Below, one piece after another: positions 16,632-31,981 of a DNA stretch of 64,000 bases (position 1 is the first letter of the stretch; the number at the start of each line of letters is the position of its first letter). A program made the translations under genes and the position numbers. The stretch comes from Nanobdellota archaeon (GTDB taxonomy: Archaea; Nanobdellota; Nanobdellia; Woesearchaeales; UBA9642), in assembly GCA_021813435.1 (NCBI GenBank), contig JAKAKR010000016.1, forward strand, positions 1 to 64,000. Reading direction: 5' to 3'. The notes below the pieces were generated by a model, which was given only the letters and a program-made list of their open reading frames with translations, searched no databases and was not told the DNA's origin.

Positions 16632-16676
16632 GTGATATTATTGTTCTTCTCATGCAGTTATGATCACAAAAAATGA

Positions 16677-16735
16677 TTGGACTGGGCGCATTGTGGGTTG
16701 GAATACGCACATCGTATCCAGAACGCCCAGTCCAA
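16677..16735. terminator. Compound hairpin between convergent genes
   Basis: TTGGACTGGGCG (16677-16688) and its exact complement (16724-16735) form a 12-base-pair stem. Inside it, GGAATACG and CGTATCC form a second short stem around CACAT. It lies between the site-2 protease stop and the convergent gene's stop, so a bidirectional terminator or processed 3' end is likely. No long U-tract follows, so an independent small RNA is also possible. Confidence 0.45.
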
Positions 16736-16748
16736 CATGAAGAGCGCA

Positions 16749-17783
16749 TTAGTTTTTCTGCGCTTGACGCGCGAGCGCCTTCGAGTATGATTCACGATAC
16801 TGCATGCTTGCAAATATCATGTTTTCCATGAACTCGCGGTTATCATCGCCACGGACGACGATCAATGGATCTTTACGATTATAAAACGATTTTACTGCAC
16901 TATATACTGAGCCGTCCCAATCTGTTTTTTTGAGTTGGTCAGCTGCAACGAGCGGCGTCATCATATCCGGGGCAGTCATTTCATATTCGTACCGTTTATC
17001 CTTATGGAACATGATGATTGTCGCTTTTGAATAATCATTCTTGAAATTCTTTTCTTTGATCGCGGATGTTGCATATATCCCTTCGGGAATTGGGATGAGA
17101 AGGACGTCCTTGAGCGGTGTAAATAGCGGTTTCGTTGCAAGATATTCCTTTGTGAAACGCATTGCGTCTTTGATTGCCGGTCCAACACCTTTCACAATCT
17201 CAGGATTATGATGTTTTTGAGAGACATCTAATACGTATGTTATCATTTTTTTATACACATCCCCAGCAATATCAAGATTATCCAGCGAATAGGTATAATT
17301 ATTTACTAAAGAATTGAATTGTTCCTTTTCAGATTCGTTCAGCGGTGATTTTGATCTTATGTATTTACTGATTTTTCGTCCTAAACGTACGCCACTGTAT
17401 GCTGCTGCGATATCTGCGCCTAGTGTCATCATATCAGTGCCCACATCGCTTTTTGGAATAGTGAGATTTACGTATATACCGCTGATTGCTCCAAGTAAGG
17501 ATTCTTGCGTATTCACAAATTTTGATGGACTTAAGCCAGTATTTTTCTTATTCGCAGGATTATTGCCCTGCTTTGCTGCTTGCGTCTCATGATATAATTG
17601 TGTTTCTGTGCATGTATCATATGTATCACACGCAGTGTCATCACACTTATACGTGCTATGCATGACCGCGGTTATGGTATTGTTTATTTCGATTCTCGAA
17701 AGCAAATATCGATCATTTAAAAACCCTGCAATAGTTCCTGCAGTAAATGCTGTACCGATACTTACCAGTTGTTCAAGATTCAT
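16749..17783 (-). CDS. Hypothetical membrane protein, last gene of the ubiquitin-like operon
   Basis: A 344-residue protein of unknown family. An N-terminal hydrophobic stretch ('VSIGTAFTAGTIAGFL') is followed by a short Cys-containing region with four cysteines near residues 45-57. Two hydrophobic segments follow near 95-150 ending in 'GVRLGRKISKYIRS', then a long soluble C-terminal domain. The start at 17783 has GGTGA upstream and overlaps the preceding gene by 11 bases. The neighbour at 17773-18654 has the same layout, so the two are probably distant paralogues acting together. Confidence 0.6.
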   Translation of the reverse strand: MNLEQLVSIGTAFTAGTIAGFLNDRYLLSRIEINNTITAVMHSTYKCDDTACDTYDTCTETQLYHETQAAKQGNNPANKKNTGLSPSKFVNTQESLLGAISGIYVNLTIPKSDVGTDMMTLGADIAAAYSGVRLGRKISKYIRSKSPLNESEKEQFNSLVNNYTYSLDNLDIAGDVYKKMITYVLDVSQKHHNPEIVKGVGPAIKDAMRFTKEYLATKPLFTPLKDVLLIPIPEGIYATSAIKEKNFKNDYSKATIIMFHKDKRYEYEMTAPDMMTPLVAADQLKKTDWDGSVYSAVKSFYNRKDPLIVVRGDDNREFMENMIFASMQYRESYSKALARQAQKN

Positions 17784-18654
17784 AGGAATCACCTTTTTTG
17801 TAGTATTGACTAATGGTTTGCGCAATATGGCGCTTGATGGGTATGGAATTGAATTCACAATGCGCGTCTGCTTTGAGGATGATGAGTTGTGTTTCTGGAG
17901 TGAATCGTTTGATGAGTGATGGATACCCTTCAATAAACTTCTCTGCGCGTGCAACAATTGCGGTCGATGATACATCCTTGGTTGGATTGAGTGTATAGAG
18001 CATATCGCGATGGATAAGATAGAGCTGCGGATTTTCAGGTTTTTCCGATGCATACGTAAGTGTCGCAAACCCTTTTTCATCCACTAATTTCTGTGCACCT
18101 TGCCGGAATAATGATTGCGCTTCTGCAAGATGTATCGCATCAATAAGTCTAGTGTAGAGCTTCACATTTTTATGATGTCGAGTAATAGTATCTGCGTATA
18201 GTGTTGCTTCAGCGCTGGGTTGTACCGCTGATTCAGAGATATCACTATTGACAATATAGTCAAGTTTCTTCTCGAACTGTTTTTTTTCGTGTTTGGATAC
18301 TGTTGCATGATTGCGCAGGGTCTTACTTACTGCGCGTCCAATACGCATACTTGCAAGATAGATTGCCGTGTATCCAAAGCCATTCGCGGCAAGGCTTATC
18401 AGGGTCTCGCTCGGCGCAAATACGACGCCGGCAATTCCTGCGTGAATCGATGTGTAATAATCCAGATTTGGACTTTCTTCTATGACCAACGTACAGTCCT
18501 TAACCTTTTTATCATATTCTTGCTTCGTACACGATTCCTTGATAAGGATCGGTACGTATTCTGCATTAAATATGTCTGTGCGATCTTTCACGATCCCGTG
18601 CGTTATCCCTGCAGCGATGGTTGCAGAAATGAGTAACATATCGGTGAGTTCCAT
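17773..18654 (-). CDS. Hypothetical membrane protein, paralogue of the next gene
   Basis: A 293-residue protein. It has an N-terminal hydrophobic helix ('MLLISATIAAGITHGI'), two Cys residues near 42 and 53, a central hydrophobic pair (about 68-105) ending in 'SMRIGRAVSKTLRNHA', and a soluble C-terminal domain. The order of features matches the following gene. No known family was recognised. It begins 43 bases after the frameshifted member of the cysteine family and probably belongs to the same operon. Confidence 0.6.
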   Translation of the reverse strand: MELTDMLLISATIAAGITHGIVKDRTDIFNAEYVPILIKESCTKQEYDKKVKDCTLVIEESPNLDYYTSIHAGIAGVVFAPSETLISLAANGFGYTAIYLASMRIGRAVSKTLRNHATVSKHEKKQFEKKLDYIVNSDISESAVQPSAEATLYADTITRHHKNVKLYTRLIDAIHLAEAQSLFRQGAQKLVDEKGFATLTYASEKPENPQLYLIHRDMLYTLNPTKDVSSTAIVARAEKFIEGYPSLIKRFTPETQLIILKADAHCEFNSIPIKRHIAQTISQYYKKGDSYES

Positions 18655-18696
18655 GGTTTCACGTTTTTTATTGATATATGTTGATCATCTCCATTT

Positions 18697-19001
18697 TTAT
18701 TCGACATCAATCGCGCTAAGCAGCGTATTCAGGTTTACTGCAAGCTTCTTGTAATCTTTTTCAAGATATGATTGTTCTATTGCAATCCAATCCTGCGCGT
18801 AATATTTTACGTACACAGAATGTGTCTTGCAATCGATCGCTTCAACCTTTTACATGCACTATACACTTCGATTGCACGCTTCTCAAGCATCCCCAACTCA
18901 TCTGACGTATATTCAAGTGACTTTTTCAGGAACGGGAATTGTCCATTGAGCCAATCCCTCAAATCATACCGATGATGGGAGGTTATTTGAAATTCATTCA
19001 T
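18697..19001 (-). pseudogene. Frameshifted fifth member of the operon's cysteine family
   Basis: The first frame (start 19001) encodes 'DLRDWLNGQFPFLKK' and 'LEKRAIEVYSACKRL', matching the helical domain of the four neighbours, then stops at 18807. The next frame continues the homology: an 'IDC' segment at the position of the family's invariant Cys and a C-terminal helix, ending at 18697. Adding one A to the AAAA run near 18865-18870 joins the frames. It lacks the SH3-like N-terminus and the 'HHGT' end. It could be a decayed gene, a real frameshift or a sequencing error. Its start overlaps the preceding gene by eight bases. Confidence 0.6.
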
Positions 19002-19896
19002 TTTTGCCCCCAATAGGATTTACATATGCCATAGTTGCATCAAAATCATTATTTTTTTTCACAGCGTCGTATCTGGCGGGTTTACTCTCATTTCTTATAT
19101 CAAAATTATCATACCTATCAAAAAGGTCATATCTGTCGAAATGTTCACGCCTGCCAAATAATCCAGAGTAATAGCTTTGATTCGCATATGCTGTACGACA
19201 ACCGTCTACAGGGATTACTCGATCTATCTGTTCTATAAACGTTGTTTCTGGACCCTTGAATTTTTTAACAACGTGTTTCAAATATTTAACATCCTGCTTA
19301 GTGAGTCTGGTTAATTCCCCAATCAATATATAATTATTTTTTCCATCAAATTTTTGTCTTTCATTAAATACAAGATATCTTGTTGAAGTTCCATTTTCAT
19401 CTCCTATTCTATACACAAAAGCGTTAAGATTTCCAAATGAAAACCTGCCGTAACCTGCCCCATCCAAATATCGTCCTGCTTCGGTGTGATGTTTATCTCC
19501 TCCTAAACTTATGGATAATTTTTCTAATGAGCTCACAAAAGCCTCTAAACTTCTTGCTCTATTATTTGGATTGCCTGTGGTTCCAAATCCCTCCTCAAAT
19601 TTATTCCAACCGTAGCGTAATCCTGCAGTAGCGCAAGCTTCCGTGGATAAGACTCCATGATTGACTGCGCCTAATGCTGCTTGATATATCTCTTCCTTAC
19701 GGCTCTCTAAATCTTGATATACTCTTCTTTTTTTTGCGTATGTTTTAAGGTCAGGGAATTGTTCTCTAATCCATAGTGCAAATTCTTCTCTAACATTAAA
19801 TACGGGCTTGAACTCTTTACTCGTTGAATGCATTTCTTCAATCGGGGACTCTCCCAGTAGTAAATCATCTAGTTTATCGTTTATCATTTTAATCAT
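18994..19896 (-). CDS. Cysteine-family paralogue D with extra C-terminal domain
   Basis: About 300 residues. The first third lacks the SH3-like domain and begins directly with the family's helical module: 'EFKPVFNVREEFALW', 'QFPDLKTYAKK' and the invariant Cys88 in 'TEACATAG'. After a 'KHH' motif it has an extra ~150-residue domain not seen in its paralogues, with short Phe-Asp-Arg-Tyr repeats near the C-terminus. The domain 'YLVFNERQKFDGKNNYILIGELTRL' region (split here by its YLVF and ILIGEL parts) looks beta-rich. The start is uncertain: ATGs at 19896 and 19887 are both possible. It overlaps the preceding gene by a few bases. Confidence 0.6.
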   Translation of the reverse strand: MIKMINDKLDDLLLGESPIEEMHSTSKEFKPVFNVREEFALWIREQFPDLKTYAKKRRVYQDLESRKEEIYQAALGAVNHGVLSTEACATAGLRYGWNKFEEGFGTTGNPNNRARSLEAFVSSLEKLSISLGGDKHHTEAGRYLDGAGYGRFSFGNLNAFVYRIGDENGTSTRYLVFNERQKFDGKNNYILIGELTRLTKQDVKYLKHVVKKFKGPETTFIEQIDRVIPVDGCRTAYANQSYYSGLFGRREHFDRYDLFDRYDNFDIRNESKPARYDAVKKNNDFDATMAYVNPIGGKNE

Positions 19897-20746
19897 CCAT
19901 TTTCTTTGTTCCGTGATGTTTTTTATAGCCATTGCTTGAAATACTCTCTAGGTTCAATGAGAGGAATTCAATAAAGCTGACAAATTTTTCTAATCTAGCA
20001 GCAAACACACCAGAATATGTTGCAAAATCAGAGTAGTACAGGCCATCCGGTTTTTGCCCGTTAAATGTGCAATAAACAGTTCTGAAATCAATTAATGCAC
20101 AGCCTCTAAGAGTTTTTGTCCCGTGTTCATAAGCCATTTTTGCTCCATTCATCACTTCGATTTTTCTTTTTTCTAAAGAGTCGTATTCTTTTTCTTTTTT
20201 AGCGTAATCTTTTAATTCAGGGAATTCCTGCCTGACCCATACTGCATATTCTTCTCGTGGATTGAATTCTGGTTTGAATGGCTCGCTCTTTTTTATAGAG
20301 TCATCTGTTGTTTTGGAAATCTCATTACCATAATTCTTAATTCTTAACATGATCTTTTTATACTGCTCTGCAAGATTTAGCTTAATTAAAACCTTAGGAA
20401 CAACGACTTCTTCGATACTCATTGGTTCTTTTTTTGCATCTTTCTGTGTTGTAGGTTCCTCTAGTTGCAACATTTTTTCTAATTCTGAGTCTTTTTCTTT
20501 TTGCCTTTTCTTTTCTACTTCTTCAACTTCTTTGCTTGTACATAATTCATCGGGATGAACACTCCATGTTGTACCATTCGATAGTCTTACGTATATTTCT
20601 TTTTCGCTTACACTTTTGACAATCCCTTTCGATCCTAAAGGAACATCGCTAACACTACCACCATAATAATACCCCGATTTTCCATTTCCATGTTCTATTC
20701 CAAGATTTCTTCTGATGACAACATCCTGGCCTTTTTCGTAATTCAA
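19889..20746 (-). CDS. SH3-like/cysteine-family paralogue C
   Basis: 285 residues. Residues 1-68 form a beta-rich, SH3-like module ('GQDVVIRRNL', 'GSKGIVKSV', 'WSVHPDEL'). A charged coiled-coil linker (70-155) follows, then a helical module with 'FKPEFNPREEYAVW' and invariant Cys216 in 'RGCALIDF', and a C-terminal 'YKKHHGT' motif. No named family was recognised. It starts with TTG, overlapping the E1 stop by four bases with GGTGA upstream, so translation is coupled to the E1. A 207-base stretch is identical to paralogue B. The conserved Cys and His residues next to E1 and JAMM genes make an E2- or E3-like role possible but unproven. Confidence 0.65.
   Translation of the reverse strand: MNYEKGQDVVIRRNLGIEHGNGKSGYYYGGSVSDVPLGSKGIVKSVSEKEIYVRLSNGTTWSVHPDELCTSKEVEEVEKKRQKEKDSELEKMLQLEEPTTQKDAKKEPMSIEEVVVPKVLIKLNLAEQYKKIMLRIKNYGNEISKTTDDSIKKSEPFKPEFNPREEYAVWVRQEFPELKDYAKKEKEYDSLEKRKIEVMNGAKMAYEHGTKTLRGCALIDFRTVYCTFNGQKPDGLYYSDFATYSGVFAARLEKFVSFIEFLSLNLESISSNGYKKHHGTKKMDD
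20261..20467. repeat. 207-base direct repeat, copy 1 (in paralogue C)
   Basis: This stretch appears identical to 22535-22741, an offset of 2274 bases. It encodes the linker and the start of the helical module. The flanking parts of the two genes have diverged, which points to recent gene conversion or to selection on this linker. Confidence 0.85.
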
Positions 20747-22155
20747 CTTCCATCACCCTTTTCTCCAATTGATGCATATTTCTCTTTCAAATCACACAAC
20801 CACTCATGGATATCGCTACGAGAACAATCGCATGGATTGCTTGCACCCACTAATCCTCCCCTAGTCGAAACATTAGCATCATATTTGAGGATTCTCGAGA
20901 CTGGAGCGCCATACCCTTTATCAATCACTTTCAATGCTTCCCCAATCATCATTCCCCCAATAACTTCATTAGTCATAATTACACTAGGATCCGGCTCATC
21001 AGTACATTTATTGCCCTGCAGCGATATCCCGAGAGCTTTTTCAACACCCATTTTGCAATCAAGGCAAGCACTTTGCCCCGGTTCATATACGACAACCTGT
21101 CCCGAATGCGCATTTGTGCCGCCGCTGACTAGAGGAATACTATAATGCACTGCAAAATAATTTATGATGGCCCTTACTGAGAATTTATCAACACAATCAA
21201 ATATAAGGTCTGGCTTCTTTTGAGAGAAATATGTTGAATTCTCATCTAATTTTCCCACCAATCCCTCAACATGTATATTTGGATTAATTTTCTTAATTTT
21301 TTCTGCTAATGCAGCGGACTTTGCTTTTCCGACAGCATCATAAAATAGTATTTGCCTGTTGAGGTTATGATCTTCTACCTCATCATAATCTAAAATATCA
21401 ATATAACCAAATCCTTCTAATGCTGCTCCAAGAGCAACAAAATTACCCAGTGCACCTGCGCCAACTATCAGGATTCTTTTTTGTGATATATCTTCATAAG
21501 GTTGCGCGTCAAATTCTTTTTCAGCATTAAATCTTCTTTCAACAGTCGCATTGTAAACTAATTTTTTAATCGGTTTTTCTCCATCGGCAAGAGGCATTAT
21601 ATGCTTTCGGGTCTCTTCAGTGATCATTCCTCCGAATAGTTCACTACTAAAATTTCCTTGAGTCTCGCCAGCGTATTCTGATAGATTTGCGCCATTGACG
21701 TCTTCTCCGGGTTTTACATAATATAGTGCTCCTCCAGTTTTATCTGTTGATGCTGATATAACACTAATCCCTTCAGATGAAGCATAGTTCATCACTCTAT
21801 CTTTGAGATCAGGAGTATTTGTCAAATCTAAAATCAGGTCAGTTTTCTTATCGAGTGACCTCTCGAGGGAATCATCAATTTTGGTCTGCTTGACTTTTAT
21901 TCCAGAATTTATTTGTTGCAGTATATTCTCTATTGATTGGTTCTCATAGTTTTCAGATAAGGAAGTTAAGAATCCCTTATTTACACCATCATCATAAATT
22001 TCTATATTTCCTATCCCTAATGCTGCTAATGATGCAGCAGTAAACTGGGATAATGGACCACTACCGATGATTGCAACCTTTGCATCAGTTAATCTATTCT
22101 GATCCCAATTCTTAATCCGTTGTTGTCTATCATATCGAATATTGTCGTTTGTCAT
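20743..22155 (-). CDS. Tandem two-domain E1-like (ThiF/MoeB/Uba1-type) activating enzyme
   Basis: 470 residues with two ThiF/HesA folds. Domain 1 (about 1-200) has a nucleotide-loop-like 'IIGSGPLSQF' and looks degenerate. Domain 2 (about 205-430) is complete: GAGALG (232-237), 'DYDEVEDHNLNRQ' with the Arg finger (255-267), 'GKAKS', zinc ligands Cys364/Cys367 with Cys442/Cys444, and a candidate catalytic Cys384. This inactive-active order resembles the adenylation domains of eukaryotic Uba1. No ubiquitin-fold domain is present. It should adenylate the C-terminal glycine of a ubiquitin-like protein. It sits between paralogues B and C and near JAMM and ATPase genes in one operon. Confidence 0.85.
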   Translation of the reverse strand: MTNDNIRYDRQQRIKNWDQNRLTDAKVAIIGSGPLSQFTAASLAALGIGNIEIYDDGVNKGFLTSLSENYENQSIENILQQINSGIKVKQTKIDDSLERSLDKKTDLILDLTNTPDLKDRVMNYASSEGISVISASTDKTGGALYYVKPGEDVNGANLSEYAGETQGNFSSELFGGMITEETRKHIMPLADGEKPIKKLVYNATVERRFNAEKEFDAQPYEDISQKRILIVGAGALGNFVALGAALEGFGYIDILDYDEVEDHNLNRQILFYDAVGKAKSAALAEKIKKINPNIHVEGLVGKLDENSTYFSQKKPDLIFDCVDKFSVRAIINYFAVHYSIPLVSGGTNAHSGQVVVYEPGQSACLDCKMGVEKALGISLQGNKCTDEPDPSVIMTNEVIGGMMIGEALKVIDKGYGAPVSRILKYDANVSTRGGLVGASNPCDCSRSDIHEWLCDLKEKYASIGEKGDGS

Positions 22156-22156
22156 T

Positions 22157-23020
22157 TTATTTTACCTTTACTGTTCCATGATGTTTTTTATAACCTCTGC
22201 TTGAGACACTCTCTAAGTTGAGTGAGAGAAACTCAATAAAGCTGACAAATTTTTCTAACCTCTTGGCAAAAGTTCCAGAATCTGTTGCAAAGCTGGGGTA
22301 GCACAGATCTCTAGGATCGCCACCTGTTTTTCCATGAAGTACGTCATAGATATTCTTGAAATCAGTTAACGCGCAACCTGTGGCGGTTTTCATAGCATGA
22401 TCATACGCTTTTTTTGCACCATCCATAACCTCTGTTTTTCTCTTTTTCAAGGAATCGTATTCTTTTTCTTTTTCAGCATATTCTTTTAATTCAGGGAATT
22501 CCTGCCTAATCCATACTGCATATTCTTCTCTAACATTGAATTCTGGTTTGAATGGCTCGCTCTTTTTTATAGAGTCATCTGTTGTTTTGGAAATCTCATT
22601 ACCATAATTCTTAATTCTTAACATGATCTTTTTATACTGCTCTGCAAGATTTAGCTTAATTAAAACCTTAGGAACAACGACTTCTTCGATACTCATTGGT
22701 TCTTTTTTTGCATCTTTCTGTGTTGTAGGTTCCTCTAGTTGTAGTATTTCTTCTAATTGTGAATTCTTCGCTTCTTGTCTCTTCTTTTCTGCTTCTTCTG
22801 TTTCTTTGCTTGTACGTAATTCGTTAGGATGGACATTCCACCTGTTACCATTTGATAATCTTACATCTATTTTTTTCTCACTCACGTATTCGATAGTTCC
22901 TTTCGATCCGAGAGGAACATTGCTAACGCTACCACCATAATAATACCCCGATTTTCCATTTCCGTGTTCTATTCCAAGATTTCTTCTGATGACAACATCC
23001 TGACCTTTTTCGTAATTCAT
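22157..23020 (-). CDS. SH3-like/cysteine-family paralogue B
   Basis: 287 residues from the ATG at 23020, chosen to match its paralogues' 'MNYEKGQDVV' start. The SH3-like module (1-68), charged linker, helical module with Cys216 in 'TGCALTDF', and C-terminal 'YKKHHGT' follow the same order as paralogue C. The two proteins are identical over residues 108-162. It begins three bases after the stop of paralogue A and ends one base before the E1 start, so the three are translated from one message. Function unknown; see paralogue C for the proposed role. Confidence 0.65.
   Translation of the reverse strand: MNYEKGQDVVIRRNLGIEHGNGKSGYYYGGSVSNVPLGSKGTIEYVSEKKIDVRLSNGNRWNVHPNELRTSKETEEAEKKRQEAKNSQLEEILQLEEPTTQKDAKKEPMSIEEVVVPKVLIKLNLAEQYKKIMLRIKNYGNEISKTTDDSIKKSEPFKPEFNVREEYAVWIRQEFPELKEYAEKEKEYDSLKKRKTEVMDGAKKAYDHAMKTATGCALTDFKNIYDVLHGKTGGDPRDLCYPSFATDSGTFAKRLEKFVSFIEFLSLNLESVSSRGYKKHHGTVKVK
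22535..22741. repeat. 207-base direct repeat, copy 2 (in paralogue B)
   Basis: Identical to 20261-20467. Outside this block the genes differ at many positions, except for a second near-identical stretch of about 100 bases encoding the SH3-like start (around 20650-20746 and 22925-23020). Confidence 0.85.
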
Positions 23021-23025
23021 TTTAA

Positions 23026-23823
23026 TCAATCCATTATCGCGGTTCCATAGTGTCTCTCTTCTCTTCCATTGTTAAGATTATAGGATACATAAATGATATA
23101 CTTGAGAAAGTCATTTGTAGATCGCGTAAAATAATTTGTTTTACTTGATTCTACTAATGCGTTATACTTATCCGCAAAATTTCTCTTTACACAGTCCGTT
23201 GTTGTATCCATTGCATGTCTATATGCTTTTTTTGCTCCCCCGAGTACTTCTTCCTTTCTTTCAATTAATGCGATATACTTTTCCCCTCTTCTTGCATAGG
23301 TATCTAGTTCTGGAAATTCTTTTTTTAGCCAAACCGCATATTCTTCTCGTGGATTGAATTCTGGTTTGAACGGATTTCCTGCGTTCGATGCCACTTCTGT
23401 TCTTGATTTTCTAAAATAATTCAGGATTTTACTTACAATTCCTGTGTGTGTTTCCTTTTGATATTCGGTTCTGTTGCCCGTGTTTTCTTTTATGGCCTCT
23501 CTGTCTGTTATAATCTCTTCTTCTGTTTTAGGTTCTGCTACTTGTAGTATCTCTTCTAATTTTGAATCTATTATTTTTTGCCTTTTCTTTTCTGCTTCTT
23601 CATGCTCCTTGTTTGTACGTAATTCATCGGGATGAAGAGACCATTCTGTGCCATTCTGCAATTTTACATATATTGATGTTTTACTTACGCTTTCAATGAC
23701 TCCCTTTGATCCTAGAGGAACCTTTCTAATACTACCCCCATAATAATACTGAGATTTTTCTCTTCCATTTGCTATTCCAAGATTCCTTCTGATGACAACA
23801 TCTTGGCCTTCTTCGTAATCCAT
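23026..23823 (-). CDS. SH3-like/cysteine-family paralogue A
   Basis: 265 residues from the ATG at 23823, which aligns with its paralogues. An upstream GTG at 23874 would add 17 unrelated residues. It has the SH3-like module ('GQDVVIRRNLGIA', 'WSLHPDEL'), a linker that differs entirely from B and C, the helical module 'FKPEFNPREEYAVW', invariant Cys211 in 'TDCVKRNF', and a variant 'RHYGT' end. The linker divergence beside conserved ends suggests that the termini carry the function. It follows the JAMM gene after a short gap. Confidence 0.65.
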   Translation of the reverse strand: MDYEEGQDVVIRRNLGIANGREKSQYYYGGSIRKVPLGSKGVIESVSKTSIYVKLQNGTEWSLHPDELRTNKEHEEAEKKRQKIIDSKLEEILQVAEPKTEEEIITDREAIKENTGNRTEYQKETHTGIVSKILNYFRKSRTEVASNAGNPFKPEFNPREEYAVWLKKEFPELDTYARRGEKYIALIERKEEVLGGAKKAYRHAMDTTTDCVKRNFADKYNALVESSKTNYFTRSTNDFLKYIIYVSYNLNNGREERHYGTAIMD

Positions 23824-23880
23824 GTTATCATTTCTCCCAAGGTCTTTTCTTATTTCTGCTGCTGAGATACTCACTCACGG

Positions 23881-24807
23881 TCAGTATTTATCATCTTCCT
23901 GATTAGGACTAAAACCAAAATCAGGTTTAGTCAATGTCCCGGTGGTTTTCTTTTCTTCAAAAACTGAAGGCAAAAAATAATCTATAAGCTTCCGCGGTCT
24001 TTCAACAATTACCTTTTCATGGATTTCAGCTTTCAACTGATCATTATCTAATTTATATTCTTCTCCATCAAATATCTTGTAATTGACACGTTCACTTACA
24101 TCTTCAACATTCGCACAATTAAGGCATAAATCTCTAGTTGCAACTTCACAATACGGCACTCTTTTACTAAGCCATCTATGATGATTAACCACAAAACTAT
24201 ACGCAAACCCCACTCTTTTCTCTTCTAAAATCTGCAATTCTTGTGCTATGAGTTCAGGATTTTCTGTTTTTAATCCTATCCTGTAAGTGATTGATTGGTT
24301 TTCGGGATCCCAGAATATCAAATTGTTTCCCTCAACTCTGCTTTGCAAACCTCTGTACACCTTTTCTTTAGGGGATATGATATAATTGGAAGGAGAGATC
24401 TCATTTAACAAGACCATCTGATTATTTACATCAATTTTAGAATGAAATGTTTCATATCTTCCATGACTATGCCACCAGCCAACGATTTTTCTTCCCTGCT
24501 GATCCAACTCTTTACCTGCTTTAATGACATGTTCAGCACTTAATACGTACTCTCCCCGGTATACTTCTTGTTCACGAGGAAGAAACGCGTCTGTAGCTAC
24601 ACGATCCCTGGCATCTTTTGCCTTAGTGAGAAACCCTCCTATCTCAACATTCTTATTTCTGCTAAATTGCAAAACAAGCGCTGCATACCTGAATGCTTTA
24701 TCGTATGCAAACCGCGATATGTGCAATTCGTCAATACCAAAATTTTTGATCGGTACTTGATGTTCTACGGGTTCATCTCCTTGAAGGAGTGCATCTATGT
24801 TTGTCAT
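23881..24807 (-). CDS. JAMM/MPN+ metalloprotease (candidate deubiquitinase-like isopeptidase)
   Basis: 308 residues with a complete JAMM zinc site: Glu55 in 'VEIGGFL', His113-Ser-His115, seven residues, Ser123 and Asp126 (HxH-x7-S-x2-D). JAMM enzymes such as Rpn11 and archaeal HvJAMM1 remove ubiquitin-like proteins or trim their C-terminal tails. The C-terminal half adds a Cys-x(n)-Cys-x-x-Cys cluster near residues 195-215 that could bind zinc. A strong GGAGGA site precedes the ATG. It lies directly after the candidate ubiquitin-like gene, so a natural job is to expose that protein's Gly-Gly end and to reverse conjugation (inference). Confidence 0.88.
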   Translation of the reverse strand: MTNIDALLQGDEPVEHQVPIKNFGIDELHISRFAYDKAFRYAALVLQFSRNKNVEIGGFLTKAKDARDRVATDAFLPREQEVYRGEYVLSAEHVIKAGKELDQQGRKIVGWWHSHGRYETFHSKIDVNNQMVLLNEISPSNYIISPKEKVYRGLQSRVEGNNLIFWDPENQSITYRIGLKTENPELIAQELQILEEKRVGFAYSFVVNHHRWLSKRVPYCEVATRDLCLNCANVEDVSERVNYKIFDGEEYKLDNDQLKAEIHEKVIVERPRKLIDYFLPSVFEEKKTTGTLTKPDFGFSPNQEDDKY

Positions 24808-24839
24808 TTTTCCTCCTACTTAAATCGTAAGATTAAGCA

Positions 24840-25277
24840 TTAAATTCTATAGCCGCCTTGCTGTACCGCAGAGACTTCTATCTCGAGTTGCTGATAATTG
24901 ATTTTTTTACCAGCAACGTCCTTGTTTGCTTTGATAATGTAATCAGATACTTTATCAGTCAGTTTTGCATTCTTGCCATTAATGACGATAACACTACCTG
25001 CTGCTCCAAGCTCTTTTTTCAAGCTTGCAGCTGTTGCAGCCTCACTATCTTTTACTTGCGAATCTACAATATAGGCTAACACATCCCTAACACTCTTATC
25101 TACATAGCTTGAAGGAAGCCTTCTCATTAAAGCAGATTCAGAATCGGCCAAACCAGGTCTTGCAGTTGCAATCAAGGGCGTTGTTTCCTCTTGAGAACCT
25201 AAGACTTTCCTTTCTTGTTCTTTTATACTTTTGTATACACTATTTTCTAATCCGTCTTTTTTTTGTAATCCTGTCAT
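24840..25277 (-). CDS. Candidate ubiquitin-like modifier precursor
   Basis: 145 residues. The N-terminal ~85 residues are charged and partly helical. Residues 95-142 could form a compact beta-grasp: strand 'SVIVINGKNAKL', helix 'DKVSDYIIKANKD', strand 'QQLEIEVSAV', ending in Gly141-Gly142 followed by Tyr-Arg-Ile. A Gly-Gly with a short tail is the classic precursor form cut by a protease before E1 activation. The domain is shorter than most beta-grasp folds, so this call rests heavily on the adjacent JAMM, E1 and ATPase genes. GGAGGA lies seven bases upstream of the ATG. Confidence 0.55.
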   Translation of the reverse strand: MTGLQKKDGLENSVYKSIKEQERKVLGSQEETTPLIATARPGLADSESALMRRLPSSYVDKSVRDVLAYIVDSQVKDSEAATAASLKKELGAAGSVIVINGKNAKLTDKVSDYIIKANKDVAGKKINYQQLEIEVSAVQQGGYRI

Positions 25278-25287
25278 TTTATTCCTC

Positions 25288-26754
25288 CTAATTTACATTT
25301 CTCTGTAAATTAATATATCCATGTCTAAACATCTCTTCGTATTGACTGGCTTTTTCTCCAAATACATCTTTCCAGTCGTCTTTTACCAGAGTTTGAGTCA
25401 TTTGTGTTGTCTCATTCAATTCATCTTTGAAAGCACTATAGAGATCATCTTTACATATCCCTTTCTTACCATTTGCAATTTCCCTTTTTATCGCATAACC
25501 ACAGGCTCTTGCAACCATCCCTTCAATCATAGCACCGCTGATGAGATTCTTATATCCGAATTTTCCTAGGCATTGACCATCGGAGCTCATCACCCGATAT
25601 GCCATACTGTCATCTGAGAATATTTCATCAAGAATAGGTGATATAAAATCCCGTACTGATGTAAATGCGCCTTGCAAAGGCTTGTTTTTAAAATAAATAT
25701 CAAATATTTCATTGCAGCCTTTTTTGTTTGGTCGAGGAATTCTGATTTTTCTATCCACTCTACCATCTCTTAAAATCGCAGGATCAAGTATATCTTCCCT
25801 ATTAGTGGCAAGAATTGTTATGACATTATCAGTTGTTGACATACCATCTATTTCTGAAAGCCATTGTGGAACAATAGAATCATACACATCAGTAGATATT
25901 CCTGTTCCCCTCTTTTTTGCAATAGCTTCTGCTTCATCAACAAATACAACTGTAGGTGCTTTAGTTTCCCTCGAATTTTCCCTTGCTGCAGCATAAATAT
26001 TTCTTATATTCAATTCTGAGTTTCCAACATACTTATCTAGAATCTCGGGTCCTTTAACACTTATAAAGTGTGCATTTCCATTATTTGCAAGAACCCCAAG
26101 ATTATATGCAATAGATTTTGCGAGTTTCGTCTTACCACAGCCTGGCGGCCCAAATAATAAAATACCTTTCGCGGGTTTTTTGCCGTAGCGCTCATAGATC
26201 TTGCTGTGAGTTATTGGATATTCTATTTCCTCTTTGATAACAGAAATAACATCTTCTAAACCCCCAATGGTATTCCAAGGAGCTTTCTCTACTTCTTCAA
26301 GCATGTATTTTGTTTTTTTCTTATCAAAACGCTGAAGCGCAATGTATCCACCCTCATCGAGAAGAACTTCATCACCAACTTTTACAGTTCCGTTCATTGA
26401 ATTGTAAACAATGTGCGGCTTTCCATCTTTGATGACTTTTAGTCTGCCATCTTGGATTTCTTCAACAGACACTACTTGACCGGTCGGTGTAGGAAATTCA
26501 GATATACCCATTACTGCTGAAGTTTTTGGGTTCAATATTACTCTTGATCCTCTCGTGATAGATGTTTTTTCGAATTTCTCAGGCACTTTTGCTATTTCAT
26601 AAATCCCCTGATGATCTATTGCAATATGTGTTGTTTTAGTGCCTGAATCCAATACTGTTCCCGTCATATAAGGCGGCTGTTGAATTCGTTCTAATTCATC
26701 TTTAAGTAAAAGTATTTCTTTTTCCGCTTCCTCTAATTTTTGTTTATCATTCAT
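25288..26754 (-). CDS. ARC/Mpa-type AAA ATPase with tandem OB domains
   Basis: 488 residues from the ATG at 26754 (GGTGAGG nine bases upstream). A short coiled coil (about 3-27) leads into 'PPYMTGTVLD' and two OB folds (about 30-90 and 92-145), then an AAA module. Walker A GPPGCGKT is at 202-209, pore loop Tyr-Val-Gly near 242, Walker B 'VVFVDEAEA' near 269, and Arg fingers in 'LRDGRVDR'. The C-terminal part ('SGAMIEGMVARA', 'DDWKDVFGEKA') matches Mpa/ARC proteasomal ATPases rather than PAN, which has one OB domain. It lacks a C-terminal HbYX or Gln-Tyr-Leu docking motif, ending Arg-Asn-Val-Asn. It probably unfolds modified proteins or remodels complexes. Confidence 0.85.
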   Translation of the reverse strand: MNDKQKLEEAEKEILLLKDELERIQQPPYMTGTVLDSGTKTTHIAIDHQGIYEIAKVPEKFEKTSITRGSRVILNPKTSAVMGISEFPTPTGQVVSVEEIQDGRLKVIKDGKPHIVYNSMNGTVKVGDEVLLDEGGYIALQRFDKKKTKYMLEEVEKAPWNTIGGLEDVISVIKEEIEYPITHSKIYERYGKKPAKGILLFGPPGCGKTKLAKSIAYNLGVLANNGNAHFISVKGPEILDKYVGNSELNIRNIYAAARENSRETKAPTVVFVDEAEAIAKKRGTGISTDVYDSIVPQWLSEIDGMSTTDNVITILATNREDILDPAILRDGRVDRKIRIPRPNKKGCNEIFDIYFKNKPLQGAFTSVRDFISPILDEIFSDDSMAYRVMSSDGQCLGKFGYKNLISGAMIEGMVARACGYAIKREIANGKKGICKDDLYSAFKDELNETTQMTQTLVKDDWKDVFGEKASQYEEMFRHGYINLQRNVN

Positions 26755-26842
26755 CTTCATCTTCCTCACCGAGTTTCTCTTTCTTAATTTGATCGATGAC
26801 CTCGCCCTTTGGTTCTGTCATCCATAGATCGTATTTGTTCAT
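26747..26842 (-). CDS. Tiny acidic ORF before the ATPase
   Basis: A 31-codon ORF in the operon, starting 23 bases after the beta-rich protein's stop and overlapping the ATPase start by eight bases. AAGGGT lies seven bases upstream. The C-terminus is a run of Glu and Asp residues. It could be a real small protein or only a coupling ORF that guides ribosomes to the ATPase start. It does not carry the Gly-Gly-Gln/Glu end of Pup. Confidence 0.35.
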   Translation of the reverse strand: MNKYDLWMTEPKGEVIDQIKKEKLGEEDEDE

Positions 26843-26864
26843 TGTTTTACCCTTTTGCCTTTGT

Positions 26865-28118
26865 TCAAAATCCATAATTTGCGATTACGTATAGATGTGT
26901 CTTCTTATTGAGCCCATCGTAGCGTGCTTCGATTGCACCTTTGAAATCCCCGATGTTGATGGGTTTGAATGCTTCAATGATGAGTCCACTCTTTTTTTCC
27001 GTATCATGACCATATTGTGTATTGATCCCGATTCCGAATTGCAGGATGTCATTACGATTTGCGGCAACAACTTCGAATGCCTTTGCTCCATGCTCATTCC
27101 CTTTTGCTTCGACTTTGAGTGCGATATCTGCCTTGGTAGAGACTGGTCCAAGATGCATGGGATTGAATTGGTCGAGACAGAAGTAATTTGATGCAATGTT
27201 GAACATCTCTGTTGAATAGAATCCTTGGTTTACATCGCCGAATCCTGTCTGTGATTTGATCCAGTAGTCTCCTGTCCTGCGATCGTATTTTGCGAATGCA
27301 AATTCTCCGAAATCCTTGAACCCCTTGATTCCTGCAAATCCATAAGTAACATTTGTATTATTTCCAAGTGCAAGATATCCATGTTCAGGATGCACGGCTA
27401 TCCATCCATAGATTCCGGTATTATCAAAATCCATCCATTTTGTTCCGATAAGTCCGCGTGCTGAAAAGAATCCGCCTTCTGCTGTAAAATTTTCATGGCT
27501 TAATCTGGAAATTATAAAGTCCTGTCTATGGGTCTTTTGCCCGACGCCTGTTCCAAGTTCAAGGTATCCTTCGATTTTACCTAGAGACGTTTCGAATTTT
27601 TTCTTTCCATAGAGGTCCAGATAATGGACATCGCGTTCATTCCAATCGCCTGTCTTCAGATATCCTGCACCCAGCGTTATTCCGGCAACTGAGAACTCTG
27701 GCCCGAACATTGTAAGAACATCACCCTGTTCTTTACCGGTCTTGATATCATGTTGTGCGACATATCTGATGAATGTACCATTATTGAATGTGATCTTTGT
27801 GTCTTGCACTCCTGAACCGTTCGCATCAGGTGATTGCGTGATTGATCCTTCCATAGAAATATTTGTAGGTACAAATCCATGTTTTAGCGCATGATTTTCC
27901 TGAGCATCTTTATGCGCATCTTCCTGTAGTTTCTTTGCATAGAGCGCATTAAAAGAATCAAGCTGCGCTCGTGTAGTGTCCTTCTTTTCGTAGAATTGAA
28001 CAGCTGCTGCAGTAGCGATATCTTGCACATATTTCTGTTCGAGCACAGTGGTATCTGGCTGTCCAGATAATGCATTCAACAGCTTCACTGTGTTTACGAT
28101 GTGCGATAGGCTCATCAT
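26865..28118 (-). CDS. Beta-rich hypothetical protein, first gene of the ubiquitin-like operon
   Basis: About 417 residues from the ATG at 28118 (GGAGG four bases upstream). The first ~80 residues are helical; the rest is a long series of alternating strands with Gly and aromatic residues ('GITLGAGYLKTGDW', 'GKIEGYLELGTGVG', 'TNVTYGFAGIKGF', ending 'LYVIANYGF'). The pattern and the final aromatic residue resemble outer-membrane beta-barrels, but there is no signal peptide and archaea usually lack such a membrane. It may be a large soluble beta structure, or a substrate or scaffold for the system encoded downstream. No family recognised. Confidence 0.6.
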   Translation of the reverse strand: MMSLSHIVNTVKLLNALSGQPDTTVLEQKYVQDIATAAAVQFYEKKDTTRAQLDSFNALYAKKLQEDAHKDAQENHALKHGFVPTNISMEGSITQSPDANGSGVQDTKITFNNGTFIRYVAQHDIKTGKEQGDVLTMFGPEFSVAGITLGAGYLKTGDWNERDVHYLDLYGKKKFETSLGKIEGYLELGTGVGQKTHRQDFIISRLSHENFTAEGGFFSARGLIGTKWMDFDNTGIYGWIAVHPEHGYLALGNNTNVTYGFAGIKGFKDFGEFAFAKYDRRTGDYWIKSQTGFGDVNQGFYSTEMFNIASNYFCLDQFNPMHLGPVSTKADIALKVEAKGNEHGAKAFEVVAANRNDILQFGIGINTQYGHDTEKKSGLIIEAFKPINIGDFKGAIEARYDGLNKKTHLYVIANYGF

Positions 28119-28139
28119 GCTACCTCCAATAACCCACAA

Positions 28140-28254
28140 TTACTATTACATAGTGATTAATAGATATATATACTTTTTTATTATACTATATATATATGTA
28201 TAAAGATATAAATAAAAACAAAAACTTTATATATTTCTGTGCTTAACTTTTTTC
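28140..28254. promoter_or_regulatory. AT-rich divergent promoter of the ubiquitin-like operon and AbrB-PhoU copy 2
   Basis: On the minus strand a TATA-like AGTATATATATC (28164-28175) lies about 50 bases before the first operon gene. On the plus strand TTTATATAT (about 28226-28235) lies about 25 bases before the AbrB-PhoU ATG. A half-site AGTGAT (28152-28157) of a palindrome seen elsewhere in the window lies next to the minus-strand start. The shared region suggests that the AbrB-PhoU protein controls the operon (inference). Confidence 0.5.
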
Positions 28255-29169
28255 ATGAAACGCAAAATTGTACGACAGGGGAAGGCCACACTCATGATCA
28301 GTCTCCCTACAAAATGGTGCCACGAGTACAATCTTCAGAAAGGGGGAGAAGTTGATGTTGAGATAAAAGAAGGAAGCGTTCTCATCAATGCCACACCCCA
28401 TGCACAGCGACGGGAAACGACGATTGCACTTGCAGGACTCGTCGAATCAGCAATACGCACAGTCATCACAAACACCTACCGGACAGGATTCGACCGTATC
28501 CGTGTTAATATCGCAAATGATGAGCAGTATAGCATCGTTCAACAAGTCATCAAGAATAATCTTATCGGGTTCGACATCACCAAAAAGGAGAAAGAGTATC
28601 TTATCATTGAAAATATTACAGAGCCTGGATCCGAACATTTCGAGAATCTTCTTACAAAAATATTTTACAATATTCTTGAATTATTTACATACACTAGCGA
28701 TCGACTTAAGGGGAAAAAACCTATCGAAGATTATCATGAAATCGAGTCACGGATACAGCAATACGACAATTTCTGCCGAAGAGTCATCACGAAGCAAAAT
28801 ATCGACCATGAACGGAACCCGTTATTTTGGACATTTCTGACGCTTATGATCCACGGGCAGCGCGAACTCTATCTTGCAAACACTTATCTCGATGCGCATG
28901 CATTCAAAGTGTCTAAAGAAACGAATGCACTTCTTGAACGCATTAAAGCAGTATTTGAGCATATCATGGATGCCTATCTCAAAAAGGACATTACCCTTCT
29001 CGAATCTATCCATGCAGAAGAAAAGACACTTATCTACAACGAGTCATATTTCCTGCTCGAAAAAAAACACGGGAAAGAATCCGTATTGCTATACCACTTT
29101 TCTGCGAGTTTACGTAATTTTTATCTATCAAGCAGTCCACTGATAGGATTAATTCTTCGCAATAAATGA
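28255..29169 (+). CDS. AbrB-domain PhoU-like regulator, copy 2
   Basis: 304 residues, a paralogue of the 9552-10451 protein along its whole length. The AbrB domain starts 'MKRKIVRQGKATLMISLP' with 'LQKGGEVDVEIKEGSV', and a PhoU-like helical region follows with 'NTYRTGFDRIRV' matching 'HAYRQGFEKIRL' in copy 1. Divergent from the ubiquitin-like operon and convergent with kinase 2, overlapping that gene by 21 bases. Copy 1 has the same relation to kinase 1. A leaderless transcript is likely. Confidence 0.82.
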   Translation: MKRKIVRQGKATLMISLPTKWCHEYNLQKGGEVDVEIKEGSVLINATPHAQRRETTIALAGLVESAIRTVITNTYRTGFDRIRVNIANDEQYSIVQQVIKNNLIGFDITKKEKEYLIIENITEPGSEHFENLLTKIFYNILELFTYTSDRLKGKKPIEDYHEIESRIQQYDNFCRRVITKQNIDHERNPLFWTFLTLMIHGQRELYLANTYLDAHAFKVSKETNALLERIKAVFEHIMDAYLKKDITLLESIHAEEKTLIYNESYFLLEKKHGKESVLLYHFSASLRNFYLSSSPLIGLILRNK

Positions 29170-31101
29170 GTCTCTCGTTGAAGATGCGGGCATCGCTGCA
29201 TGCGTACTGTCGTGAGCGTATGCGGCAAGAGATGGCGATTGCTGCTTTTCCGATGCATCAACAGATTTTACTGTCCCATCGTCATTAAGCGCGAAATAAA
29301 AGGCGATAGCGCGATCAACAAGCTCACGCTTCTCGGATGGAAGATAGAATCGATAGCCGTTTACATATCCTTCAACAGTCTGACTTACTACTTTCTCAGT
29401 GATGTGATCAGCTTTGATGGACGGACCGACTTCAGTAATACTTATGGGAAAATATCTTGTGGATTTGGCCCGTTCTTTTGCTGTCGCGATATCTTCTGAT
29501 GTGCAGAAATATTTGACAAAAGTATCCTCGAGTCTGTCATCTGATGAGGATTGCGCAACATAGTAATTCAGCGCGGCGCCTATTGATTGTAAAGTGCTTG
29601 ACTCTATGCCACTCATCCGATCATCTACAGCCGACATCACATCTGCCTTGCTCATAACATATATGAATGGTTTTGGAACAAGCGTTTTGGAAAGATGATT
29701 GGCATATGCGCGCCGAGTGCCATCATTGCGTCCGAGGTATGCTGCGAGAATAATTGCAGTAAAATCTTTAGGTTCCTCTACAAAAAATGTTCTACTCGCC
29801 ATATGAATGTCTGCAAGGACATCCTGCACATCACTTCGCGTCATCTGATGACGCAATTCCTGTACGTATCCTTTCATGTCATCGAGAAGCCCCAGCGGAC
29901 TTGGAGTAGCGGTGTTACCTAAAATGAGATTGTGTGAAAGATATCTTTTTGTGTCAAGAAGTTCACGTAGCGTGGGCGAATGATCATTAACAAATTTTGT
30001 ATTCGGTTGAAGGGCTATCACCGCAGCAAGCGAAGCGATAGCGGAGAGCATAAAACTCGCCGGCTTACGAATCCGTTTCAACGTTTCCTTAAAATTTTTC
30101 TTACGATCAATGCGTTCAAGATCATATGCAAGATCGGTGGTGTTATAGTAGATGTCTTTTTTGAAACTCATGCATTTACGGATGACTTTACGATATTCGG
30201 ACGGCGCTGCCTTTAGTGCCTTCTCCAGATTGTGTTCGTGTTCTTCGAGTGATATTGATTTTATCTTTTTATTATTGTTAGTCAATGAGACTTTTATTTC
30301 ACGATCGGGAAGTTTGATTGCGGAACCGTTATCATCATACGTCACATCATAAGAGAACGGCACTTTTCCCGTAAGCGCAAAATACATCGACGCACCGATC
30401 GCATACATATCTGTCTTAATATTGCAACTTGATTCCTGCATAGAGACGAGCGCATTAAGAATTTTTGGTGAAGTATAATTTGTTCCTCCACGCGTTGGAA
30501 GCAGTTGATCACGGATTTTACTTTCACGTTTAGCATTCTGTAGATCTGTGATTTTTATGCGAAGATTCTTATCGATAATGATGTTGGAGGGCTTGATGTC
30601 GCGATGAATGAGCGGGTCAAAGAAGTGCCCGGGAGTGTGCATGTGATGGAGATAGGATATTCCTGCGGTGACGCCGCTAAAGATTGCAAGGAATTGATCT
30701 TTTTTTAATGGACCATTCTTATTCACGAAATCCTCGAGTGTTTCTCCATCGATATAATCTTCAACCGTACAGTATTTATTATTGATGATGATCACATCGC
30801 GGATGGTTGCGATGTTAGGATGATCTTCAAGTTCGTTAGCGCATTCAATCTCGTTAATGTTGATATTGTTCCTCGGGAATTTTGACTGATTAATGACCGT
30901 ACAGATAGAATTTTCATTGATTTTAGGTTTCGTAATTTTTACTGCAAGTGTCTTTACTAATCCATTGTGCTGATAGCGCGCTTTAAATACATCGCGCGTC
31001 TGGCCTTCACCAACCCACTCCAATATCTCATAATGTTGGTCTTGGAGCGACTGCAAATCTTTTTCTGTGAGTACCTCTTCGATTGATTTGTGATTCATCA
31101 T
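29149..31101 (-). CDS. Membrane-anchored Ser/Thr protein kinase, module 2
   Basis: 650 residues. Kinase domain at about 22-330: glycine loop 'GEGQTRDVF', ATP-binding Lys in 'LAVKI', catalytic loop HRDIKPSN (166-173), and the metal-binding motif changed from Asp-Phe-Gly to Asp-Leu-Gln (186-188). The key Asp is kept, so activity remains plausible. A transmembrane helix near 345-363 is followed by a ~285-residue domain, probably extracellular, with no recognised fold. AGGAG precedes two adjacent ATGs (31101, 31098); the second has better spacing. A palindrome lies upstream of its TATA element. Confidence 0.82.
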   Translation of the reverse strand: MMNHKSIEEVLTEKDLQSLQDQHYEILEWVGEGQTRDVFKARYQHNGLVKTLAVKITKPKINENSICTVINQSKFPRNNININEIECANELEDHPNIATIRDVIIINNKYCTVEDYIDGETLEDFVNKNGPLKKDQFLAIFSGVTAGISYLHHMHTPGHFFDPLIHRDIKPSNIIIDKNLRIKITDLQNAKRESKIRDQLLPTRGGTNYTSPKILNALVSMQESSCNIKTDMYAIGASMYFALTGKVPFSYDVTYDDNGSAIKLPDREIKVSLTNNNKKIKSISLEEHEHNLEKALKAAPSEYRKVIRKCMSFKKDIYYNTTDLAYDLERIDRKKNFKETLKRIRKPASFMLSAIASLAAVIALQPNTKFVNDHSPTLRELLDTKRYLSHNLILGNTATPSPLGLLDDMKGYVQELRHQMTRSDVQDVLADIHMASRTFFVEEPKDFTAIILAAYLGRNDGTRRAYANHLSKTLVPKPFIYVMSKADVMSAVDDRMSGIESSTLQSIGAALNYYVAQSSSDDRLEDTFVKYFCTSEDIATAKERAKSTRYFPISITEVGPSIKADHITEKVVSQTVEGYVNGYRFYLPSEKRELVDRAIAFYFALNDDGTVKSVDASEKQQSPSLAAYAHDSTHAAMPASSTRDSFIAKN

Positions 31102-31164
31102 ATCTCCTGATGTTTATTCTGAGATAACAAAACATCGCGGTATTTATAAAGTTTTCGAATTATT

Positions 31165-31180
31165 ATCACTAATCAGTGAT
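31165..31180. promoter_or_regulatory. ATCACT-N4-AGTGAT palindrome upstream of kinase 2
   Basis: Perfect inverted repeat with six-base arms and a four-base spacer. It lies about 15 bases upstream of the kinase gene's TATA element (31142-31151, minus strand). The same palindrome occurs at 63796-63811 at the same distance from the TATA element of an unrelated gene. It could also act on the divergent TrmJ gene. Confidence 0.55.
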
Positions 31181-31258
31181 TACATTTAAATGATTGGTTC
31201 AAACGACGACAGAATCCACAATAACTACATTTATTAATAAAAAAGAACCACGCTGAGT

Positions 31259-31981
31259 ATGCAACTGACTGTTATTCTTATGGAGCCTGAGCATCCAGGC
31301 AACACCGGCGCAATAGCGCGCGCCATGAAGAATTTTGACTGCAATAAACTGCTGCTCATCCATCCTGCATTCAAGAAAGACAATGAGGAATTGCGTAACC
31401 GTGCCAAATGGGCTAATGATGTCATTGATCACGCGCGCATCATCAAGAGTCTTAATACAACAACACTCAAAAAACTTCGGAAAGATTTTGATTATCTTAT
31501 CGCCACCACTGCAAAGATCGGCAGGGACTATAATATCCCCCGAAGCCCTATCACTCCTGGACAGCTTGCAGAAAGGCTATGCGAGATCAAGAAGGGGTCC
31601 AAAACAAGAATCGGCCTACTCGTTGGACGCGAAAGCGCTGGTCTGACCAATGCAGAGATTGCAGGATGCGATTTTGTCGTGACCATCCCTACCTCAAAAA
31701 CCTATGGGACCATGAACATCTCGCATGCAACAACCATCATCCTCTATGAGATATTCAAGAAAACAAGTGAGGAGAATCTCATCTCGCATATCAGCCCTAT
31801 TTCTGCAAGAGAGAAAGAGCAGATTCTTAAGATTCTAGATGCGCAACTCAAAAAGATGGAGTTTGCAACCGCCGAGAAGCGTGAAACACAGCGCATGGTC
31901 TGGAAAAAACTCATCAGTAAAGGATTTCTTTCCAAACGCGAAGCCTACGCGCTTATGGGATTTCTGAAGAAGATAAAATAA
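31259..31981 (+). CDS. trmJ: tRNA (cytidine/uridine-2'-O)-methyltransferase TrmJ
   Basis: SPOUT-class RNA 2'-O-methyltransferase of 240 residues. The N-terminal 'PEHPGNTGAIARAMKNF' with catalytic Asn and Arg, 'LLVGRESAGLTNAEI' and the knotted 'TMNISHATTIILYEIF' are TrmH/TrmJ family motifs. The C-terminal helical extension of about 75 residues matches TrmJ, which modifies position 32 of tRNA. Position specificity in archaea is Cm32 or Um32 from family knowledge. Single gene with its own promoter; a TTTAAAT element lies upstream. Confidence 0.9.
   Translation: MQLTVILMEPEHPGNTGAIARAMKNFDCNKLLLIHPAFKKDNEELRNRAKWANDVIDHARIIKSLNTTTLKKLRKDFDYLIATTAKIGRDYNIPRSPITPGQLAERLCEIKKGSKTRIGLLVGRESAGLTNAEIAGCDFVVTIPTSKTYGTMNISHATTIILYEIFKKTSEENLISHISPISAREKEQILKILDAQLKKMEFATAEKRETQRMVWKKLISKGFLSKREAYALMGFLKKIK

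Follow-up and report, generated by a model that had tools for sequence, protein, structure and literature searches.

We analysed a 64,000-nucleotide stretch of DNA (hereafter the window) from a Nanobdellota archaeon of the order Woesearchaeales. A tightly packed block on its minus strand encodes, in this order, an AAA+ ATPase, a candidate ubiquitin-like modifier (Ubl), a JAMM metallopeptidase, two KOW/SH3-like proteins, a two-domain E1, a third KOW/SH3-like protein and a KOW-less protein (Table 1). The Ubl open reading frame runs from an ATG start to a TAA stop and yields the C-terminus ...SAVQQGGYRI; the JAMM gene starts 32 bases downstream of it, and the Ubl, JAMM and E1 genes are all free of frameshifts. 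A sequence-only reading of this DNA had placed here an open reading frame with a Gly-Gly three residues before its end and a JAMM gene alongside, and the sequence bears this out. Among relatives, the gene order Ubl-E2-JAMM-E1 recurs in dozens of loci.

Table 1. Coordinates of the operon's genes and of the predicted processing site in the window, listed in gene order.
Feature	Position	Strand	Basis
Mpa/ARC-type AAA+ ATPase, 493 aa (coiled coil, OB region, AAA), predicted dedicated unfoldase	25288..26769	-	
Ubl modifier precursor, 145 aa: residues 1-33 loose extension, about 34-138 beta-grasp fold (predicted)	24840..25277	-	
Gly141-Gly142, predicted mature C-terminus of the Ubl	24852..24857	-	sequence and relatives' doublets
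Tyr-Arg-Ile tail (143-145), predicted target of JAMM removal	24843..24851	-	sequence and relatives' variable tails
JAMM metallopeptidase, 308 aa, predicted Ubl maturation/removal enzyme	23881..24807	-	Pfam Prok-JAB, E=3.5e-7
KOW/SH3-like paralogue 1, N-terminus like the KOW-E2 proteins of L042 and L029	23026..23874	-	
KOW/SH3-like paralogue 2, 80% identical to paralogue 3	22157..23029	-	
Two-domain E1, 470 aa: inactive-type N-terminal ThiF-like half, active-type C-terminal half	20743..22155	-	Pfam, alignment
KOW/SH3-like paralogue 3	19889..20746	-	
KOW-less paralogue, has the helical part common to the other three	18994..19932	-	

The predicted modifier precursor and its C-terminal glycine

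Sequence searches do not recognise the window Ubl. It has no match in Pfam or PADLOC and one unconvincing match in PHROGs (E=0.044), and a sequence-profile search of the PDB returned matches at chance level only. A structural model, built on an alignment with five relatives from named genome records, is confident across residues 34-138 (pLDDT about 75-93), with residues 1-31 and 140-145 mostly below 50. It contains strands at 35-41, 50-54, 96-99, 102-104, 115-121 and 124-136 and helices at 56-60, 63-72 and 77-91. The best 50 VIA-align rows are ubiquitin-like folds almost throughout, covering model residues 28-142. FAT10 leads with a Z of 7.3 (85 residues, 2.9 A), followed by SAMP1 (7.1), ubiquitin (7.0), ISG15 (7.0), NEDD8 (6.4) and Caldiarchaeum Ub (6.4), all of them moderate values, as Z is below 8. 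Foldseek alone found no match at E<=0.001, so the beta-grasp fold stays a prediction that combines moderate scores with a consistent list of matches.

The model also redraws the domain boundaries. The sequence-only reading had looked for the fold in residues 90-145 and had described a long charged N-terminal region. A ubiquitin fold is indeed predicted, in a domain that really spans about 34-138; the N-terminal extension exists, is therefore only about 33 residues long and is missing from L007, L032 and L035, whose Ubls begin almost at the first strand.

We then scored the doublet aligned to Gly141-Gly142 in 52 distinct family Ubls. It reads GG in 24, GA in five and xG in 20 (x = P, V, A, S, Q or L), with three odd rows, and about 50 of the 52 retain a Gly. 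Beyond it the tail ranges from 0 to 27 residues and shows no conserved sequence. A GG falls within the last 30 residues in 28 of the 52 Ubls, compared with 6.7% of 992 length-similar open reading frames from the same loci; this roughly eightfold excess over unrelated frames is not a formal probability, because the family members are related. In the E1 clade nearest to the window, the available Ubls carry GG, followed by LYGLLK in L042, YRN in L029 and 13 residues in L005 (L005 and L165, the contig with the E1, belong to one genome, G008).

Two relatives locate the likely mature end most directly. The Desulfobacca Ubl (L051, 5679-6037) stops right at PQEGG, a natural pre-trimmed form, while that of its archaeal relative L050 ends PQEGGYLR. 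This pair is the best sequence evidence for Gly142 as the mature end. Because the doublet Gly is near-universal, the tail is variable and the bacterial relative ends at GG, the mature end is likely to be GG or a single Gly. Judged from the alignment, the conserved feature is one Gly and not Gly-Gly, since PG, VG, AG, SG or GA takes its place in roughly half of the relatives, chiefly the distant ones. The sequence-only reading had proposed to check for an invariant Gly-Gly before a variable tail and had named same-operon orthologues without Gly-Gly as evidence against itself. The variable tail is confirmed and the invariance is not; such orthologues do occur, and nearly all of them keep one Gly. 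A single conserved Gly in place of Gly-Gly is also found in several eukaryotic Ubls.

Predicted processing and activating enzymes, and a missing E2

The enzymes that would mature and activate the Ubl appear intact. The window JAMM protein keeps the Glu and HxH...S..D motif with all metal ligands (Glu55, His113, His115, Ser123 and Asp126), which are nearly invariant in the family (E 58/58, H 58/58, H 58/58, S 57/58, D 59/59). In a profile comparison, the solved structures closest to it are those of PfJAMM1, BRCC36 and the Caldiarchaeum Rpn11 homologue.

Two ThiF stretches in a Pfam scan give the E1 the paired-adenylation architecture of Uba1 and BilD, as read from sequence. The C-terminal half carries the adenylation residues Gly232, Gly234, Asp256, Asn264, Arg267, Lys279 and Asp323, zinc cysteines and a catalytic-type Cys384. 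Conservation at these sites is again near-complete (Cys384 60/60, GxG 61/61, Asn264 61/61, Arg267 60/61, Lys279 61/61, Asp323 61/61). The N-terminal half is probably an inactive partner, because it is without the NxxR and Asp-x-Asp signature of the second half. Cys384 lies 17 residues behind the CxxC, with no large Cys domain; across family E1s this spacing is 11-38 residues, mostly 17-21. A Cys shortly behind the CxxC is the arrangement of MoeB/UBA5-type E1s. Searched against the PDB, the E1 profile matches eukaryotic Uba1 best (4e-27), then MccB and MoeB.

Most relatives encode a further protein that resembles an E2. One Cys is invariant (60/60) and is preceded, usually by 13-15 residues, by His-Pro (His 52/59, Pro 56/59), in a segment of the pattern P-x-F...HPFL...IC-x-G. 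Most of the best 50 VIA-align rows for its model (pLDDT 63) are E2s, among them Cap2 (Z 6.3) and UbcH7 (6.0), with coiled-coil proteins interspersed; Foldseek alone gave nothing significant (E>0.4), and these proteins have no meaningful Pfam or PDB sequence match. One E2-like gene, that of G083 (L033:701-1765), stops just after HPFL and before the invariant Cys and is truncated or frameshifted.

The window departs from its relatives at exactly this step. Profile searches, including one with filters off, found no family E2-like protein among the window proteins. Two profiles, the second of which matched all four positive-control genomes, likewise found no family E2 in the window's 96%-complete genome. 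With no detectable family E2 in the genome, the cascade would be partial or modified, and the locus might be in decay; advanced decay is disfavoured, because E1, JAMM and the GG are intact. A MAFFT alignment paired the open reading frame at 18994-19932 with the E2-like protein of relatives, which made it a candidate for a diverged E2; we rejected it, as no E2-family profile matches in the window (filters off) or in the genome.

The KOW proteins offer one reading of how the E2 disappeared. They match only the first 60-90 residues of KOW-E2 fusions in L042, L043, L029 and L005, as might be expected if the ancestor encoded a KOW-E2 fusion whose KOW part was later duplicated while the E2 core was lost. 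Paralogues 2 and 3 flank the E1 gene, possibly a recent duplication tied to loss of the E2 core. The helical domain shared by all four paralogues has no known domain match and an equivalently placed Cys in each of them (TGCAL, RGCAL, TDCVK, EACAT); this could possibly be a Ubl-transfer residue.

A predicted unfoldase and a probable mobile island

Directly upstream of the Ubl lies the AAA+ gene. Among all NCBIfam models, TIGR03689 matches its product best, over the full length and ahead of PAN/CDC48, with a score of 378.5 bits that is below the curated cut-off of 504.75. The protein ends INLQRNVN and is without a proteasome-docking end as known from Mpa or PAN; such ends are GQYL or HbYX. Elsewhere the genome encodes two related ATPases, which have the sizes of PAN (398 aa) and of CDC48 (806 aa, two AAA stretches), as well as two subunits of the 20S proteasome.

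The AAA+ gene is an optional part of the family, since only about 11 of some 58 loci have one. ARC-type genes like that of the window adjoin the Ubl in L006, L027 and L042, and ClpX-type genes occur in L005, L028, L049, L050, L051, L169 and L195. In a quick E1 tree with a midpoint root, which we used for broad grouping only, the ARC-type loci fall apart into two groups, and the bacterial E1s sit within the archaeal set, next to sequences from archaeal loci with a ClpX-type gene. This scatter suggests that loci gained or swapped an unfoldase on more than one occasion.

The system as a whole is patchily distributed. As a single sequence, the window E1 matched nothing in the genome collection, and it is 49% identical to its nearest relative; a 12-row profile did yield matches. 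An E1 profile hit strongly in 45 of the 371 genomes of the phylum. Among named records, the E1 profile matched Pacearchaeota, Woesearchaeota, other Nanoarchaeota and two Desulfobacterota. For the Ubl, a single-sequence search among 145 relatives gave three orthologues, and a profile of these three matched 19 of the 352 genomes of the order. The congeners G001-G003 have neither Ubl nor E2, and G008, G320 and G165 each hold several distant E1 copies. Viral contigs yielded no relative, and plasmids gave partial ThiF matches only.

Its genomic setting is that of an island. It is flanked by an M50-type protease gene (15435-16631) and a TrmJ-like gene (31259-31981), which are separated by 14.6 kb in the window; in G001, G003 and G005 this distance is 1.2-6.4 kb, and the space holds other genes and no Ubl operon. 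GC content is 36.7% in the operon and 43% in the window. Together with the patchy, multi-copy occurrence, this setting fits an accessory system that spreads horizontally, a behaviour that would suit a role in defence or stress.

Several further observations concern the island and its relatives. Window positions 16631-31259 form a variable region, an insertion spot between the M50-type protease and TrmJ-like genes. After the operon, on the same strand, two neighbouring, seemingly paralogous proteins with hydrophobic N-termini are encoded at 16749-18654. Near the island, the product of 29149-31101 resembles protein kinases and is prolonged at its C-terminus by a long extension; that of 10420-11961, also near the island, is similar to it by eye. 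Separately, G319, G008 and G320 each carry several distinct E2-like or E1 copies that lie far apart in the E1 tree, which suggests parallel tagging systems in one small-genome archaeon.

A proposed tagging pathway and its relation to known systems

The sequence-only reading had taken the Ubl for a ubiquitin-like precursor. That interpretation stands up well, given the beta-grasp model, the relatives' Gly doublet with its variable tail and the conserved, intact active sites of JAMM and E1; prediction and comparison also support the gene order and the island location. We consider it likely that the gene encodes the Ubl precursor of a JAMM-E1 tagging operon equipped with an unfoldase. The JAMM protein would remove Tyr-Arg-Ile to expose Gly142, which the two-domain E1 would adenylate before binding the Ubl through a thioester at Cys384. 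The E2-like protein of most relatives, with its invariant Cys, would then hand the Ubl to target lysines. As the window has lost this protein, transfer there might proceed directly from the E1 or through an unrecognised partner, perhaps the KOW proteins. The Mpa/ARC-type AAA+ ring would recognise and unfold tagged proteins, possibly feeding the 20S proteasome, and the JAMM protein would recycle the Ubl from them. Cleavage, activation, conjugation and the role of the AAA+ ring are steps that we infer, as is a cellular purpose in proteostasis or defence.

The alternative with the best claim, though one we judge unlikely, is that the locus is a decaying remnant left after E2 loss. Conjugation would have ceased, and Ubl, JAMM and E1 would be leftovers or would act only as a non-covalent regulator of the AAA+ ring. 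Both profile searches that failed to find an E2 in the genome, the second with its positive controls, fit such a history, as do the KOW duplicates that flank the E1. Against it, JAMM and E1 keep all their catalytic residues, the GG is intact and the genes are without frameshifts, despite an E1 that has diverged so far from its nearest relative.

It is improbable that the Ubl is instead a sulfur carrier or a dual-purpose protein like SAMP/MoaD, in which Gly142 would be activated for a thiocarboxylate and tagging would not be the main role. The active E1 half does resemble MoeB/ThiF, SAMP1 ranks high in the list of fold matches for the Ubl, and archaeal SAMP systems work without an E2, as the window would have to. 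Yet the relatives' operons encode an E2-like protein whose Cys is invariant, the genome has a further, single-domain ThiF-type E1 outside the operon, none of the operon's genes was recognised as part of a sulfur pathway, and the patchy, multi-copy occurrence is unlike that of a housekeeping sulfur carrier. Least probable of all, and only a slim chance, is that the Gly-Gly is incidental and the Ubl an uncut, fixed adaptor domain for the AAA+ ring: the frequent replacement of Gly-Gly by other doublets would suit this, but a doublet Gly is kept in about 50 of the 52 relatives, the sequence beyond it varies freely and in one relative stops there, an active-type E1 and JAMM are co-inherited, and most loci are missing the AAA+ gene.

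Taken as a tagging operon, the locus, together with the complete relay of its relatives, suggests that nanoarchaea own a little-noticed tagging system like the ubiquitin of our own cells. Ubiquitin-style cascades that combine E1, E2 and JAMM have been described in eukaryotes, in a few archaea (Caldiarchaeum, Asgard) and in bacterial defence operons. That nanoarchaea with their tiny genomes hold dozens of such operons adds candidates for the origin of the ubiquitin pathway; the Ubl and E2 families concerned escape current profile libraries, and predicted unfoldases adjoin some of the operons. A full-text search of the open-access literature turned up nothing on Ubl systems in Woesearchaeota. 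More speculatively, and less likely than not, nanoarchaea and some Desulfobacterota could carry a mobile Ubl tagging system coupled within the operon to an exchanged Mpa/ARC- or ClpX-type unfoldase, a compact and independently assembled counterpart of ubiquitin and the 26S proteasome, with the window as a streamlined version using E2-less conjugation. Small protein sets such as the E2-less variant and the pre-trimmed Ubl suit tests of which parts are essential and of whether tagging leads to unfolding and degradation.

We file the system, on sequence grounds, as a variant of the prokaryotic ubiquitin-like conjugation systems. Bil comprises the same four activities (BilA Ubl, BilB E2, BilC JAMM, BilD E1), in the same order as most relatives and unlike the window, which is without an E2 and has a Mpa/ARC-type AAA+ protein and KOW proteins. 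In both, the E1 pairs an N-terminal adenylation domain that is inactive, or in the family probably so, with an active or active-type C-terminal one, and a DUB trims, or in the family would trim, the Ubl precursor (PMC11354881); in Bil, BilC pre-processes BilA by trimming exactly behind Gly-Gly (reviewed in PMC11354881). BilA has two Ubl domains and the window family one; the Bil E1 has a helical Cys domain of about 80 residues, whereas family E1s are without one; and BilB is described by a CEHH motif, whereas the family E2-like protein has HP upstream of the Cys. PADLOC matched neither the window Ubl nor three E2-like proteins, and among the matches listed for E1s it named BilD only for L041, weakly (8.5e-4). 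We do not claim Bil membership, because the Cys domain, the two-Ubl form, an E2 in the window and PADLOC recognition of the tested Ubl and E2 proteins are all missing.

Other systems share parts of this arrangement. The Caldiarchaeum subterraneum operon (CsUb, E1, E2, RING E3, CsRpn11) likewise places a JAMM gene beside the gene of an archaeal Ubl precursor whose Gly-Gly is followed by a short tail, and there CsRpn11 is proven to cut the CsUb precursor exactly after Gly-Gly (PMC6043591). Its Ubl and E2 families are different, and the window operon has an AAA+ unfoldase instead of a RING E3, for which none of ten window proteins gave a Pfam match. Cap2 and BubCD chains are among the PDB matches of the family E1 profile, and the E2 domain of CBASS Cap2 is among the best fold matches of the low-confidence E2-like model; unlike CBASS Cap2/Cap3 and Bub, the family has separate E1 and E2 genes and its own Ubl, with no cyclic-nucleotide synthase seen. 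The haloarchaeal SAMP/UbaA/HvJAMM system also combines an archaeal beta-grasp modifier ending in a C-terminal Gly-Gly with an E1 and a JAMM protein and no E2. The SAMP E1 has one ThiF domain, and the system is not known to have a dedicated AAA+ gene; its operon is unrelated to that of the window.

The Pup-proteasome system, finally, also sets a small modifier gene beside an AAA+ ATPase, of the kind whose model, TIGR03689, fits the window protein best while staying below its cut-off. Pup is intrinsically disordered and attached by PafA, whereas the window encodes a Ubl predicted to be folded, with an E1 and a JAMM protein. The C-terminal end of Pup is GGQ, and one family Ubl (L185:7118-7558) has an SGQGGQ end that recalls it.
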